Shown one piece after another: positions 8,963-59,500 of a stretch of 64,000 nucleotides of DNA. The DNA lies in contig NC_092575.1 in NCBI RefSeq assembly GCF_037975245.1, positions 19,859,841 through 19,923,840 of the forward strand, read 5' to 3'. Position 1 is the first letter of the stretch. Each line of letters begins with the position of its first letter. The translations under genes and the position numbers were made by a program. Source of the stretch: Apostichopus japonicus. Its lineage: Eukaryota > Echinodermata > Holothuroidea > Aspidochirotida > Stichopodidae. The notes beneath the pieces are model-generated. The model had not been told where the DNA came from and made no database searches. It saw only the letters and a list, made by a program, of their open reading frames with translations.

Positions 8963-8970
8963 GGTTGGTG

Positions 8971-9815
8971 GGTTACATCTCTATGTTCCGACGTCTCTAT
9001 ATTCCGACGTCTCTATGTTCCGACGTCTCTATGTTCCGACGTCTCTATATTCCGACGACTCTATGTTCCGACGTCTCTATGTTCCGACGTCTCTATGTTC
9101 CGACAAATTGTTTGGACTCTAATTTTTTTTGACCAAAATTTTTTCGGACCCATTTTTTTGTGACCCAATTTTTTTCGGACCCCATTCTTTTTGGACCCAA
9201 TTTTTTTGGACCAACATTTTTTCGGACCCAATTTTTTTTCGGGCCCAATTTTTGTTCACCCCAATTTTTTTATGGACCCAATTTTTTTGGACCTAAATTT
9301 TTTGGACCCGATTTTTGGGGACCCATTTTTTTATCGGACCTTATTTTTTGGGACCTAATTTTGGGTTACAAAAGAATGGGGTCCGAAAAAAGTTGGGTCC
9401 CAAAAAGTTTTGGTCCAAAAAGATATTGGGGTCCAAAAAAAATTTGGTCCAAAAGAATTGGGTACCCTAAAAATATTGGGTCCAAAAAAAATTTGGTCCA
9501 AAAAGATATTAGGTCCAAAAAATGGTGTCCGAAAAGATATTGGGTCAAAAAAATAGGGTCCGAAAAAAAATTGGGTCCCAAAAAATTTTGGTCCAAAGAA
9601 AAATTGGGTCCAAAAAAATTTTGGTACAAAAAAAATGGGGTCCGAAGACAAATTGGGTCACAAATGGGGTCAGAATAAAATTTGGTCAAAAAAAATTAGA
9701 GTCCAAACAATTTGTCGGAACATAGAGACGTCGGAACATAGAGACGTCGGAACATAGAGACGTCGGAACATAGAGACGTCGGAACATAGAGACGTCGGAA
9801 CATAGGGATGTCACC
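8971..9815. mobile_element. Foldback element made of nested tandem arrays, 8-bp duplication GGTTGGTG
   Basis: GGTTGGTG occurs at 8963-8970 and 9816-9823. Just inside, the ends are GGTTACATCTCTATG and its near reverse complement CATAGGGATGTCACC. The left arm has about 8 copies of a 16-mer (TCTCTATGTTCCGACG), then about 14 units of a T-rich ~18-mer (TTTGGACCCAATTTTTT type) to about 9366. The right arm mirrors it in reverse complement, ending with 6 copies of CGGAACATAGAGACGT. The architecture resembles Drosophila FB foldback elements, whose long inverted repeats are themselves tandem short repeats. The translated ORFs here are by-products of the repeat units. Confidence 0.88.
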
Positions 9816-9823
9816 GGTTGGTG

Positions 9824-35640: not shown

Positions 35641-36175
35641 TGGCACGACCGGAAGAATCGACAATGTGCATGCAAGTATGTTCTGGAAGAAAGAAACAAA
35701 AGTTGATGATAAAAATAAGCAAAATATAATCAACGTAATTTCAGATGAGTATATTGACCCCCAGAATGTTCTGCATAGATATAGAAAACAATATGTTATA
35801 ACGACAGACAAGATGACAAGAAGATAGAAAGATGACCTCTTAGTTGGTATGAAAGGCTGAATTATGTTCCCAGATCATTGGAAAGGACTGAGAGCTCTCA
35901 TATAACTAAACACAAGTTACTTACAAAATGGCAATGTTTTGTCATTTTAATATAAATTCACAAAGATCAACTTGTGGTTAATATAAATTAACAAATCTGA
36001 TATTATGGAAGTCATGCGCAATGTGTACATAGCACATCGATCTCTAGAGTAAGGCAAAATATGTCGGCAAAATATGTCACCAAAACGGAACTTGTAATGT
36101 TCGATACAGGTGGCAAAAGCCTACTGTGGATTGAGGACCTTCCTTACTGGTTTCAAACCTCTGGACATACAATCA

Positions 36176-36247
36176 GTGTCCATGGCCTAGTTGGTTAAGG
36201 TGTCCGCATATAAAGCAGGGGGCCCAGGTTCAAAGCCCAGTGGAGGC
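36176..36247 (+). tRNA. tRNA-like sequence (pseudo-tRNA or SINE head)
   Basis: 72 bases that can adopt a cloverleaf. Acceptor GTGTCCA/TGGAGGC pairs 6 of 7, D stem GCCT/AGGT is complete with loop AGTTGGTTA, the anticodon stem pairs 4 of 5 with loop ATATAAA, but the T stem has two mismatches around TTCAAAG. A T run (about 36254-36260) follows, as for Pol III termination. The weak T stem suggests a pseudogene. Confidence 0.45.
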
Positions 36248-38513
36248 TGAAAGTTTTTTTCACTATTCTGGATTTTCCAACTTCATTATTCACATATTTA
36301 AATTGGATTAAAGTATTCAGAACTTTACCAAATGACATTATTTCTGTATGTTAGATTTACAAAGAGTGATATTTCAGGTAATGATGGATGCATGACTTTC
36401 ATTCAGGCTAGCTTGTATAGGTACATTTCATTTTAATATTTTTAGACTTCCTTGGACTTTACAAAAATTCTTCCATTTCTATTTCATTAATTACAACATC
36501 AAAAACAACCAAAAAACAAAAAGTATAACAGATCTAAATACTACAAAAATAAAATTCTACAATGTTTCAATATTTTGAAATTCTTTTAAGTAAAATATGA
36601 GAGATGATGATAAGCATGACTAAAGGCAGCAAGTAACAGTTTGAAACAAAGAAAGAAAGAAAAAAAAAAAACCTAATATATTGTAGAACATCAGTCAACG
36701 ATTGTGTAATACTGCAGACAAGAGCATTAACTCAAGTCTCCAGACCACGAAACATGGTCTCTTATTTATGCTTACATATTGGCCCCAAATATGTACCTGG
36801 TAAAGTGATTCTGTTATTCATGGCCTATATTATACTTGCATCACCCTGATGACTTGACCATGGTAACTGACTATCAAATTTTTTGTTTCTTGAATCCTTA
36901 CCATCAGAGTTGTCACAATTACCTTAATTTTTAATATCGAGTCCAGTCAATTTCTTAGTACAGCTGTATTATCTCTACAGGAAAACAGTCGACAAATATG
37001 TTTGAGTCACTCCAATTCTGAAATTAAGTGACTCACAACAAGACTTGCAATTATCACTGTTTCCTCGACAACTGCATATGTCTAACTAGTAACATCTGAA
37101 ACCAGAAACTGCAACTTATAAAATACCTAAATACAAAACCTGACAAATATTCAGCTGTACATATTCAGCTCTACGAAAATTGTGCATAACTACGAATTGT
37201 AGGTGAAAGCAACCTGTGCATAATCCCACAAAGTTTTAACTTCACGCTTTTAGCTTCAAGACTATCAAAAAGAAATACCAAAGAATTTAGGAGAAAGTAT
37301 GAAGATAATAATGAAAGAGGACACATCACCACGGGCTGTTCGCTATCCAATCAGCTAGTTTATAAGGACTTATTGCTTCTACAGAAACAGGAAAAAACTT
37401 GCATTTCCCATGTGTGTTTGAGGAGAACTTCAATTCTGGTTTGTCTACAAATTGCAATATTTGTACAATGATGGTTGATACTAGAATTAGCCAGCGTAGC
37501 CAGGTTTGGTGTTGTCATTTTGGAAGTTTTGGAACATTGGAATTTCCCCCCATATTTCACTCCATAATGGTCATCTAAGAGACCCAATAAAGAAAATGCA
37601 AACCCACAAACTTCCTACACATACACAACGTCAAAAAATTACAACAAATTCATTTTTGGTTTTTTTCACTGCTTATTTAGGCCGCTTGCATCACAGAAAA
37701 ACTGGCAACCCTGAGATTAACTGAAAGACTACTAATTTGCTCAATTGTTTCACTATAATAATATGTTTCACTATAATAATACTATGATAAAAGTTGAGTT
37801 GTGGCAGTTAACATAACACTCACTCAAATGCAGTAGAGTACAAATACTAGTTTTTTTATTTTTATTTTTTGGTAGACATATTTTGGGTAATTTGTTAAGG
37901 AATTGTGGCCAGCTTAGCATATCTAGCAACACAGTCCCTCTAAATTTATGTTTTGCAGCATGCTAGCCTCCGAAAAAGCTTTATCAACAAGCTTTGAGCA
38001 TCTGTAATGCATCTTTCAACAGAATATCAAGGAAATTTCTTTAAAAGAAAAATACCCCAAATGTTATAGTAAACATGAAAATATGTTTGATGAGGGGGGG
38101 GGGGAGGGAATGGATGTGAGGGGTAGGCAAAGGGAAGGGTAGGGACAGTGGAAGAAAGACACACAAATTTCATATCATGCTGATTTCTTCAACTCCTGTC
38201 TAAGCAGAAATCCTGCGCACTATACCTCACACATGATACAGCTATTCATTTTGTGCAGTACCACCACCAACATAAGAAAAATATACAAATACAGGAACAG
38301 GTTTGTGGTATCTGAGAAGCACATCAGAGCTCACCAGTAATCTGGAAGGGCAACATCACCAAGATAGGAAGAGAGTTAGAGGAAAGAACAAGATATTTTT
38401 GACAAAATGTTATGAATAAAAGCTTATAATTTGAATTTAGAGATTTAGTTAATGTGATAAAGATGTGATAAAAATGGTGATAAATGATGGTTACTATGGT
38501 AATAAGATGAGCA

Positions 38514-47500: not shown

Positions 47501-50500
47501 TGAATGGTTTCTTTAACTTGATAACTTTTCTCATGCAATTTTTTTTTATCTGCTAATACACAGCATATTAACCAATTGTTGAATGTAGATCCAGATAAAC
47601 CCAGAAATGTTCCTGGTTTGAAGTTTTACAAACAACACTTATTTCATCTCCAATAAAATCAGGCACTCTGATGTATCTAGTACACTGGCCCGGTTAAGGA
47701 TCGACGCCCATATTCTCTTCCCTCCAAATCTACCATTCTGAAGGCTTACAACTACAAATTCCAAACACATCCATCTTGCTAAACCAGGGTTCCTGATAGA
47801 AGAGGCCCCTATAATCCAGGCATTACTGCATGTCAATACAGAGGCAGTGGGTCATCATGTATATATTAAATCATTGAAGTACAATAAGTCTCCTCACCGT
47901 TGACGACGTATCTATGAAATGCGTCTCTGACGTATTTCGTGTACGTCTCAACTCCATACATGTGCTTCATGTTGGTCTCATTCTCAGTGAATATCTTCTT
48001 GGGTTCTTTACCTTCTGGATCTTTGTCACATACAAAATACATGGTGCCTAGATAGAATGAGGAAAAGAAAAATATTACACCTGCATACAGATCAGATGCG
48101 AGTCAAGATCTTAAAGGAGAATGCTTTATTCTTTGTCATATATGAGTTACCTTCACCCTCTGACCCCACGCCACCCCCCTCCTACCCCATTGAGTGGTCC
48201 AGCATTTGAGCATGGCTGCCACAATATGTGACAGCTTAGTCTGGTTCAATCATCACTACATCGCCATGACAACATGCAGGACAGTTGGTTAATGTCTGCT
48301 CTAAAAGATTGGGATATACTGTACATATAAAACACTGCATTCAGTACAGCATCATGCAATACCAGAATGGTAGTATATTTATAAGCATACTGCAAGTTAT
48401 ATACCATATGAATGTAATATGTAGATGCATGTTACCACTGGCAATCCATGGTTTTAGTTCATGTTATAGGCATGGTACCACTGAAGTGCTATGAGCGCAT
48501 GCATATTACCACTGGCATGCCATGGTTGTAGTTCATGTTATAGGCATACTACCACTGAAGTGCTATGAGCGCATGCATATTACCACTGGCATGCCATGGT
48601 TGTAGTTCATGTTATAGGCATACTACCACTGAAGTGCCATGAGCGCAATGCATGCATGTTACCACTGGCATGCCATGGTTGTAGTTCATGTTATAGGCAT
48701 ACTACCACTGAAGTGCCATGAGCGCAATGCATGTTACCACTGGCAATCCATGGTTGTAGTTCATGTTATAGGCATGGTACCACTGAAGTGCCATGAGCAC
48801 AATGCATGTTACCATTGGCAATCCGTGGTAGTAGTTCATGTTTTAGGCATACTACCACTGAAGTGCTATGAGCGTAATGCATGTTACCATTGGCATGCCA
48901 TGGTTGTAGTTCATGTTATAGGCATACTACCACTGAAGTGCCATGAGCACAACGCATGTTTGCTCTGGCTATGTATGGTTTTCATACCAAAGTACAGACA
49001 GACAAACACATGATTAACACCTAATAACTGATTCCTGCATTTCTCTTATATATTCATTTTTTTGAAATTTATTTTTGGCTTCCCTCTGATTCTTGTATCT
49101 TTACCAATACAGAAGAATCAATACTTCTTGACCGACACACAATATAATGATATAATAACATATAATAATAACAAATAACAATATAATAACACTGGCGCCA
49201 ATATGATAAAGATATCGCCATTCATACACAAAAGCCAAACAAAACAAAAACTCTACTTTCTTGTATGGGCAGAGCACGTTTCCCAGTATCCTTAATTTTA
49301 CGATTGACCCTTACCCAGGCTATCGTGGTGAAGATAAACCTTTCCATCCTTCTGTGATCTCAATTTTGGCTTGATGGTACAACCTTCATGAGAACATCCC
49401 CAGATCCATGTATTCCGGAACCATAGCTGCGGCAAGACGTGGATGGTGGCAGTCTCGGGACCTCTGTTGACTGCTGTTATCCTACAGAGTACATCGTTGG
49501 GTGTGTTCTTGGCATACTCAGCAAATACATCCCAATACTTGCCCTCGTTGAAAACACCTGGAATACAGACAAGATAGGAGATACTTTGGTATTTCAAAGG
49601 TTACCAGCGCCGGGCCCCAAATCTTACCATCCTAAAAATGGCTGGACAGTATAAAAAAGTACTTTCCTTGAGGCCCTGATCCTCCAAATTAATCCGAGTC
49701 ATTGAAGATTATAAAACAAGGTAATACGTTTTCTCAGTGATGGATAACTACTTTGATAGTGGCAGTAAAATGCTTGTTGAAATGTGAGCATGGGTGACCA
49801 TTATTGGACTATCTAGCATATTTAAGGAGCACAATACTGTTGAACTATAACTTGTAGCAGTTGTAAAGAAACATTAAATAAGAAGATTTACTAAGTACTA
49901 TATTAACGTTCACCAATCTCCGAAATTTATCCAAGCACTCAGTTTCTGAGACAAATTTGCACCCTTAGGCTAATTTCAAACCTACAGTGCTGTTCTCACA
50001 AGGTCAGAAAAGTTTCTTAAATTCTTTATCGGAGTGAAGTAAAAAAGTGTGAAATATTTAAATATATTTAAATATATAAAAGTACTGCTATTCAGGTAAT
50101 TGCATAGCAATTCCTCTACTAGGATGGATGGTCTGTACCTTGATGGGAGCAAGAGTAAAGCACAGTGTTAGATTTAATTTTTAATGAATGATTTCAAGGA
50201 ATGCATTATTCACTATGCACGATTCAACACCCGCAGTTCAACCAACAAGTCACCTTTTAAAAAAGCAAAAGAAAACTTATCAAGATTTGAGAAAAATAGC
50301 AAATTTCACTTGTTTCTTTCTATTCCAGGAAATTTTCCCATTAACATACAAACACACCAGTGGACCAACAGACTACATATATATAATTATTTCTCGACAT
50401 GAATAACCCAGATAAGTGAACCAAGAACTTACTAGAGAATACAGTATGTGGGAGACATTAACATAGATTTTCTTTAACCTATTTAAAAAACATGTCTTTT

Positions 50501-56500: not shown

Positions 56501-59500
56501 CTCTATAATTCATGAATATTCATTTCCTCAAGAAGCCTAGAACTGTACAATAGGATAATCTTTAAAAAACTTTATGTGAATACTGTTTGTTTGTTTACTG
56601 CTGCTAAATACATTGTTGTAAATACCAAAAAGTATGTTAGGCATTTAGTTTTTTTTTGGTCTCATTTTAATTTACTTTGGTTCCTGTTTTTAAAAAAACT
56701 TTAATGTGATTTATTTGCCCTAAATTAATTTTCCCTTTTCTTTGCGTCTTGCTTTGAACTACTCTGAAAAACCAAGAATTATAATCAGTCACAGTTAATT
56801 CCACTTGAGGCAAAAACCAAGAATTATTATCAGTCACAGTTAATTTTAACTCCAATAAGGCCACTTGAGGCAAACTTGCATTGGACAAATATTTTACAAG
56901 ACATAGCACTAAGTGTACCTCCTACAGTACTGTAGATATTGCAATGTACTGTACAGTATGCTTTACCGTGTAGTTAAAAGCACACTACTGACTGCGCTAA
57001 GTGTACCTTCTACAGTACTGTAGATATTGCAATGTATGCTTTACCGTGTAGTTAAAAGCACACTACTGATTGCACTAAGTGTACTCTCTACCTCATACAG
57101 TACTGTAGATACATTGAAATGTATGCTTTACCGTGCAGTTAACTGCATGCACACTACTGACTGCACACCGTGTACTCTCTAGCTCCTACAGTACTGTAGA
57201 TATTGCAATGTATGCTTTACCGTGTAGTTTAAGCACACTACTGTATACTGACTGCACTAAGTGTACTCTCTAGCTCCTACAGTACTGTAGATATTGCAAT
57301 GTACGCTTTACCGTGTAGTTTAGGCACATTATACTGACTGCACTAGGTGTACCTCCTACAGTACTGTAGATATTGCAATGTATGCTTTACCGTGTAGTTA
57401 AAAGCACACTACTGACTGCACTAAGTGTACTTCCTACAGTACAGTAGATACAGTATATTGAAATGAATGCTTTACCGTGTAGTTAAAAGCACACTACTGA
57501 CTGCACTAAGTGTACTCTCTACCTCCTACAGTACTGTAGATATTGCAATGTATGCTTTACCGTGTAGTTTAAGCACACTACTGTATACTGACTGCACTAA
57601 GTGTACTCTCTAGCTCCTACAGTACTGTAGATATTGCAATGTATGCTTTACCGTGTAGTTTAGGCACATTATACTGACTGCACTAGGTGTACCTCCTACA
57701 GTACTGTAGATATTGCAATGTATGCTTTACCGTGTAGTTAAAAGCACACTACTGACAGCACTAAGTGTACTTCCTACAGTACAGTAGATACAGTATATTG
57801 AAATGAATGCTTTACAGTGTAGTTAAAAGCACACTACTGACTGCACTAAGTGTACTCTCTACCTCCTACTGTACAGTACTGAAGATATATTGAAATGTAT
57901 GCTTTATCGTGTAGTTAACAGCAAACTACTGACTGCGCTAAGTGTACCTCATACAGTACTGTAGATATTGCAATGTATGCTTTACCGTGAAGTTAAAAGC
58001 ACACTACTGACTGCGCTAAGTGTACTCTCTACCTACAGTATATACTGAAGATATATTGAAATGTATGCTTTACCGTGTAGTTTAAGCACACTACTGACTG
58101 CGCTAAGTGTACTCTCTACCTCATACAGTACTGTACAGTAGGTATTGCAATGTATGCTTTACCGTGTAGTTTAGGCACACTACTGACTGCACTAGGTGTA
58201 CCTCCTACAGTACTGTAGATCTATATTGCAATGTATGCTTTACCGTGTAGTTAAAAGCACACATCTGACTGCACTAAGTGTACCCTGTACCTTCGACAGT
58301 ACTGAAGATATATTGAAATGTATGCATTATCGTGTAGTTTAAGCACACACTGTGGTTTTACAGTAACATACATACTGTACATCTCAAAAGTTCACACGTT
58401 TCTTTGCAAGATCAGAACAATGCAAACAGACATCGATGAGGTTGGCAAGATATATATACCACTATTTGACCTTCTATCTATTGGGTGAACAATACAAACT
58501 GCTAGGTTGACTACAGTTTATACAATATGGATTGAAATTACATAAGTAAAGATTTGATCATCATCAGCAAATTTTTGTAAATTTGCAACAATAGTACCAC
58601 AAAGGTACTGCATGTTTATTGTGCCAGATTTGAAGTGACAACAATATGAACTAAGTGTATGATACAGCTGCAAAACAATCAGTCAATATCTTTTTCAGCA
58701 ATTGATTAAAGTTTTTTCAATTGAAAAACCTAGAATACATGTTCAAACACTCACAAATTGTTTTAAGGCTACAAAACAAACTGCAAAACTAAATGAATTT
58801 TTTGGGACATACGATATATAGCAGATGCCTGTATACTGACTCCTGAGCACCAAAAACCTATAACTTTATAATACAGTTACCTACAAACCAAAGATCTCTA
58901 TTCCTACTGTGTAATTATTTAGTCCTACATCATGAAGAATATAAAGAGACAGTGTGTAGGGACTTGATGCTAAATCAATTGGCATAGTCTGTGTATCAAT
59001 AATCAATCAATTCTTTGATTAACAAGACATTGCATATATTTCTTATCCTGTCGACCTGACCTCAGTCCAATCCGAGTTTGACCAAATTCCCAATACAGCC
59101 AAAGCTCTATGGCCTAGCTGCTGCACAATAGAGATTGCAAGTGACTATACTGTACAGTAGGAATTCTTGCTCTCCCTCGACGGAGGTAATAAAGTGGACC
59201 CTGAATGTGTCAACGTCCAACGAAAGAGTGCGTGTTATGCATGAGAGAAAGGCCATTAGCTTGATTACATGGCAATCTGCTAGATTCATGCAAGTCTATC
59301 TTTATGGAAAAGTGATGATGGCAAGTAACCAGAGATCTATGGTTGTAACTTCTCACAAGTGTTCACAGTTCCAATTTGATAGCCACAGATTGGAGGACCA
59401 GGGTCCTCGAAAGAATGAGGCTCACCATTGCAGGGTCTCATCCTAGGTACACGAGCATTGACACTTTGATGATGATCACCCTTTCTGTATCAGATTTCTC

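Follow-up and report, generated by a model that had tools for sequence, protein, structure and literature searches.

A multicopy foldback element with arms of 16-bp tandem repeats and 8-bp target duplications in the holothuroid Apostichopus japonicus

The 64,000-nucleotide stretch of Apostichopus japonicus DNA analysed here (the window; assembly GCF_037975245.1, contig NC_092575.1, positions 19,859,841 to 19,923,840) contains an 845-bp foldback element at positions 8971–9815, flanked on both sides by a perfect 8-bp copy of GGTTGGTG. The element is a well-preserved new example of the long-established foldback class and not a new kind of thing. We propose that it is a non-autonomous foldback DNA transposon with several hundred termini in the genome, which would use a cut-and-paste mechanism, make target cuts staggered by 8 bp and depend in trans on a transposase that is probably of the hAT type. 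We give this reading, enzyme included, a probability of roughly 0.7. An earlier note, made from the letters of the window, had described a foldback element whose arms are tandem arrays, together with a clean 8-bp target duplication, and this description is supported by the analysis reported here.

Architecture of the copy in the window

Read directly from the sequence, the element starts with GGTTACATCTCTATG and ends with CATAGGGATGTCACC. Its parts are as follows, in positions of the window and with the source of each assignment in brackets.

8963–8970, no strand: left target-site duplication GGTTGGTG (sequence; on contigs C1–C8, 38 of the 40 end pairs have 8-bp duplications with no or one mismatch)
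8971–8993, plus strand: T-type terminus GGTTACATCTCTATGTTCCGACG, the final 16 bases being outer unit no. 1 (sequence, genome-wide pattern count)
8978–9104, plus strand: left outer array, eight copies of TCTCTATGTTCCGACG (TRF, script)
9105–9362, plus strand: T-rich inner array of the left arm, with a period of 16 and the core TTnGGACC (TRF, autocorrelation over the family, GAC spacing)
9363–9369, no strand: foldback centre of a few bases, without a unique middle segment (gap between the TRF arrays, DNA fold)
9370–9713, minus strand: right inner array, mirrored and A-rich, period 16 (TRF)
9713–9808, minus strand: right outer array, six copies of the reverse complement (TRF, script)
9793–9815, minus strand: G-type terminus, GGTGACATCCCTATGTTCCGACG on the minus strand (sequence, pattern)
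9816–9823, no strand: right target-site duplication GGTTGGTG (sequence)

TRF reports a 16-bp period for both outer arrays, with 7.9 copies and 94% matches on the left (8978–9104) and 5.8 copies and 100% matches on the right (9714–9805). The eight left and six right units counted in the earlier note were recovered by a script allowing two substitutions, which found none elsewhere in the window. The mirrored, T-rich inner array that the note had placed about a centre near 9370 was also found, with its mirror point at about 9366, but the unit is not the ~18-mer first reported. In 87 inner arms from 46 copies the autocorrelation is highest at 16 (0.548), compared with 0.513 at 15, 0.470 at 17 and 0.376 at 18, and the most frequent spacing of the GAC core is likewise 16. 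Outer and inner arrays thus share their period. The idea that the inner array is a diverged outer array was dropped, because beyond the common period the likeness of the two consensus units is at chance level, with 8 of 16 letters alike in the best rotation (P = 0.67 against shuffles).

Folded as a single strand, the element reaches −331.5 kcal/mol, compared with −111.0 ± 6.3 kcal/mol in 20 shuffles (z −35). Long pairable inverted arms with short tandem repeats, the structural hallmark of foldback elements, are present in the window copy and in other copies. The element has no coding capacity, in line with the earlier note, which had seen no transposase in it. Its two ends are not identical and read GGTT..TCT and GGTG..CCC, that is, they differ at positions 4 and 10.

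Three further repeats were observed in the window. Positions 56906–58352 hold a tandem array of ~85 bp (for which periods of 170, 255 and 340 were called) with a TRF score of up to 1751, and positions 48425–48960 a 75-bp tandem array of 7.1 copies with 91% matches. Positions 36170–36282 match the flank of one foldback copy (L095) at 83%; this flank also matches L110 and belongs to an unrelated dispersed repeat.

Copies and ends in the genome

A search of the host genome for the terminus, as recommended in the earlier note, covered 671,581,487 bases in 35 contigs and found the 23-base sequence 608 times within one mismatch, both end types together, while the reversed-pattern control gave 0 occurrences. 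In the same genome the Pfam model Bindin (PF02084) has a single match of 110.2 bits, compared with none in 14 control genomes, and the frame contains the conserved core of bindin. Exact ends number 409 (171 and 238 in two pattern searches), and the pairing analysis used all 148 of these 409 that lie on contigs C1–C8. Here, 40 end pairs were found within 2.5 kb. The flanking 8-mers, which the note had also asked to be tabulated, are perfect duplications in 34 of these pairs and duplications with one mismatch in four; the other two pairs have three mismatches. Target duplications of fixed length therefore accompany the element at many sites. The family is multicopy, with 8-bp duplications and with the empty sites described below, so that it is neither a single copy lacking an empty site nor a set of copies lacking such duplications, either of which would have spoken against the earlier note. 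All pairs but one combine a T-type with a G-type end (39 of 40), the remaining pair having two G-type ends. Among the first 20 pairs fetched, 16 have perfect duplications, three have one mismatch and one has three; two of these 20 (L012 and L013) share their flanks and represent a single insertion that was duplicated.

For copy statistics we started from 101 loci, of which 62 had both ends typed and a duplication with no or one mismatch and three were untyped. Seven duplicates among the 62, recognised by their duplication sequence, were dropped. The resulting 55 distinct insertions are 303 to 1,541 bp long, with a median of 689 bp. As a point against the proposed reading, a looser script gave duplications with at least two mismatches in 36 of 80 loci, most of which we read as internal units mistaken for ends and as truncated copies, as was shown for several of these loci. 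In some copies (for example L022, L026, L032, L033, L069, L097, L099 and L100) the inner domain is of another kind and the middle segments are longer and varied.

Two observations concern individual copies. In T-end orientation, L088 (G000:C7, near 15509857) stops abruptly in the left inner array. Its 8-bp duplication ACTCTGAT comes immediately after, as though everything in the right arm, as far as the target copy, had been lost. The duplications GTACATAC and GCAAAAAA recur in pairs 7.5–23 kb apart on several contigs (L036, L038, L039; C2, C8, C9, C15, C16); these pairs adjoin a ~245-bp tandem satellite and mark a large repeated unit bearing foldback copies.

The terminus is closely tied to the outer array. 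After the first unit, all but three of the 409 exact ends continue with T as the array requires. Ends without an array, in which the first 15 bases do not continue with T, were counted at four sites genome-wide, compared with about four expected by our own arithmetic and one in the reversed control. Due to this near-universal continuation and the chance-level number of array-less ends, the terminus seems to be a cap to the array's first unit and not a TIR in its own right. Within the 55 insertions, T arms have 2–10 outer units (median 5) and G arms 1–55 (median 3), and the two numbers do not covary (r 0.14). Arms of more than ten units are found among the G arms in five of 55 cases (L002, L005, L018, L046 and L047) and among the T arms in none of 55. 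The difference between T and G arms is not significant in these insertions (paired Wilcoxon P = 0.085, Levene P = 0.27), and the asymmetry in array length is suggestive only. An apparent inversion of the interior relative to the ends was seen when three substitutions were allowed, the two end types differing at two positions, and vanished with strict typing.

A more far-reaching view, which we regard as a long shot, is that a separate TIR does not exist at all, that the end consists of nothing more than a short cap at the first unit of a 16-bp array bound by transposase, and that the two ends work differently, with at most ten units at the T end and up to 55 at the G end. If true, the element would offer a natural series of copy numbers in which to ask how many sites an asymmetric transpososome needs, and the enzyme of GGT-ended elements might belong to a lineage that is not yet described.

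Target sites, candidate enzymes and recent movement

The duplicated 8-mers define a palindromic target, RTnnnnAY. In 96 distinct 8-mers from contigs C1–C8, T occupies position 2 in 64% and A position 7 in 61%; position 1 is G in 42% and A in 31%, and position 8 is C in 39% and T in 39%. After deduplication by flanks, T2 is present in 29 of 37 insertions, A7 in 24 and both in 20. Relative to the flanking composition (T frequency 0.32) the excess of T2 has P = 1e-8 and that of A7 P = 6e-5. Positions 3–6 carry little information.

This 8-bp target agrees with that of hAT transposons, for which excerpts of the literature give a preference for nTnnnnAn in Hermes, an element whose two 17-bp TIRs are mismatched at two base pairs (PMC10368747, excerpt), and GTNCGNAC as the target of hobo (PMC3276498, excerpt). 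It is also compatible with P elements, which target GTCCGGAC with 8-bp duplications and share the GT....AC frame (PMC3276498, excerpt); the family matches this frame and not the centre of GTCCGGAC. Since the P-element target fits the same frame, hAT cannot be told from P by the motif.

The earlier note had supposed a hAT-like enzyme acting in trans. The target motif fits this, and it is the one feature that makes hAT the likeliest enzyme in our view; a transposase bearing the family's ends did not emerge from the searches described in the next paragraph. The ends of hAT elements are C/TAGNG. The termini of the family, GGTKACATC, are unlike these and lack the terminal C/TA..G consensus of hAT elements, and for this reason we do not file the element as a member of hAT.

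A coding copy with GGTKACATCYCTATGTTCCG ends was found neither by end pairing on contigs C1–C8, nor among the hAT, KDZ and Merlin matches, nor in a search with a middle segment of the longer subset (40 scored copies). Among the 148 of 409 exact ends on C1–C8, paired up to 40 kb, no pair with a duplication of no or one mismatch is wider than 1,541 bp. Genes of the hAT type are abundant, with 633 first-look candidates in the genome, 150 of which were scored. None of the 55 scored matches on C1–C8 is enclosed by any of the 148 exact ends; the nearest lies 1.7 kb from an exact end, outside that element, and the next 16.5 kb away. A candidate for an autonomous partner was provided by L072/L102, where a hAT dimerisation domain (PF05699, E 5e-8) lies 0.5–0.8 kb from a T end. 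It was ruled out, because eight of 11 other copies of the same hAT family continue without the foldback piece (L105, L106, L107, L109, L110, L112, L113 and L114, the copies that allowed placement of the probe, which fell elsewhere in L104, L108 and L111). The foldback of L072/L102 is a truncated insertion inside a hAT copy and not a partner.

Split copies on contig C17, two of which were fetched, are interrupted by another foldback-like insert and show no clear gene. This second element of ~4.4 kb (L125:1206-5615, G000:C17:6915106-6919515; also in L126) lies inside the middle segment of a family copy and has arms of the 15-bp repeat CGGACAATTCCCACT, a unit nearer in length to that of the sea urchin TU elements; flanking AATTTTT suggests a duplication of 7–8 bp. 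Downstream of a Merlin-like gene on C16 (L116:2259-3000, G000:C16) we observed dense inverted and direct repeats with an AT-rich unit of ~22 bp.

We propose that a transposase made elsewhere would bind the 16-bp sites arrayed along each arm, pair the T end with the G end, cut at GGT..ACC and insert the element with an 8-bp stagger at RTnnnnAY. The repeat arms might thereby gather transposase at each end, by analogy with the tandem repeats of Galileo, proposed as additional transposase sites (PMC4079207, excerpt), and with the subterminal-repeat array of Hermes, which recruits transposase, an effect seen for a few repeats of the left end (PMC10368747, excerpt).

Other enzymes could act on the same arms. 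Movement by a transposase of the P superfamily (THAP), to which the Drosophila foldback Galileo belongs, seems rather unlikely to us: the ends of P-family elements start with CA, and the little information at target positions 3–6 does not match the P-type GTCCGGAC. In favour of it are the 8-bp duplications that P elements produce at this target (PMC3276498, excerpt) and Galileo itself, a P-superfamily foldback whose TIR tandem repeats would carry the extra transposase sites (PMC4079207, excerpt). Equally improbable in our estimate is a Mutator-like, Merlin, KDZ or other transposase. Termini starting with GG are commoner in Mutator and Merlin than in hAT, but a palindromic RTnnnnAY target is not known for Mutator. 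Most foldbacks have been assigned to Mutator (PMC4079207, excerpt), Tetris has duplications of 8–10 bp and Zisupton has duplications of 8 bp (PMC12730594, excerpt). Against these enzymes, the family's ends were present in none of the two Merlin copies fetched out of 11 genome matches, and of the 41 KDZ matches in the genome the seven on C1–C8 all lie at least 589 kb from an exact end.

Movement of the family, by whichever enzyme, is directly visible. Two insertions, L015 on contig C3 (after GTTGTTAG) and L073 on C5 (after GTATTTAG), lie 32 bp apart in paralogous DNA whose flanks align at 97.7–99.3% identity. They form a reciprocal pair of empty sites, the one such pair found, in which each locus is uninterrupted and has a single target copy where the other carries its insertion. 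L036 and L038, which lie in the tandem satellite, also matched empty units, at only 85–89% identity. The window copy (C15, duplication GGTTGGTG) and L042 (C18, duplication ACATTAAC) are separated by a single difference in 829 aligned bases, and this near-identical sibling on another contig with another duplication shows that the family moved recently. Compared with the window copy, L043 has 14 differences in 797 bases and L044 has 18 in 780.

Left and right outer units number 8/6 in the window copy, 9/6 in L042, 8/4 in L043 and 7/3 in L044. As these numbers differ among four close siblings, the arrays change in length about as quickly as copies transpose. The ongoing slippage suggested in the earlier note thus stands as far as the change in copy number is concerned; as to the cause, outer copy number would drift by slippage or unequal exchange, shifting between successive transpositions. 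The least probable explanation, that the sequence is no transposon and that segmental duplication spread a minisatellite carrying an inverted copy, finds some agreement in copies with the same flanks and duplication (such as L012 and L013) and in changing array lengths, but it is refuted for the family by the reciprocal empty sites, and the exact ends and near-identical siblings with different 8-bp duplications also leave it with practically no weight.

Comparison with known foldback and hAT systems

Foldback elements form an established class whose description goes back to the 1980s. The TU elements of Strongylocentrotus purpuratus, reportedly the subject of work by Liebermann in 1983 and Hoffman-Liebermann in 1985, are said to be foldback elements with long inverted repeats, an outer domain of short tandem repeats with a unit of ~15 bp, an inner domain and 8-bp duplications, and one subset is said to have varied longer middle segments in modular classes. 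Compared by this description, the family from the window has the same foldback form, an outer tandem-repeat domain together with an inner domain, and 8-bp duplications; the outer unit is 16 bp instead of ~15 bp. The subset of copies with longer middle segments resembles the modular classes reported for TU. That the family is TU itself is, in our judgement, close to an even bet. A text search of a collection of papers gave no match for 14-mers of the outer unit, and for sea urchin foldback or TU elements it gave passing mentions or unrelated work only. The proposal in the earlier note that the element is undescribed is doubtful, since sea urchin foldbacks were already known in 1983, for which 'Lieberman et al. 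1983' is credited (PMC4079207, excerpt). The anatomy of TU is reportedly the same.

In Drosophila, several foldbacks invite comparison. FB and FB-NOF have tandem-repeat arms like the family described here, but their unit sequences differ and they reportedly have 9-bp duplications and a Mutator-type transposase; Mutator and FB duplications are 9 bp (8–10) compared with 8 bp here. Galileo, of the P superfamily, is foldback-like and has different termini, and its duplications are 7 bp long. Tetris of Drosophila virilis is a foldback with arms in domains with tandem repeats, of which an autonomous copy was not found by its authors; its complete copies have duplications of 8–9 bp, near the 8 bp of our family, whereas its repeat unit is ~220 bp instead of 16 bp and its authors placed it in Mutator (PMC4079207, excerpt).

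Hermes and hobo are not foldbacks, carry a transposase gene and have termini different from those of the family. They resemble it in their 8-bp targets, nTnnnnAn or GTNCGNAC (PMC10368747, PMC3276498, excerpts), and the ends of Hermes, like those of the family, differ at two base pairs (PMC10368747, excerpt).

In conclusion, the family leaves the known picture of foldback elements unchanged. It offers a genome-wide view of a kind of foldback that sea urchins first revealed forty years ago, and this view takes in exact ends, the motif of the target, empty sites and siblings that differ by one base. Because its arms vary in the copy number of a small unit, it constitutes a natural series for the role of repeats in transposition.
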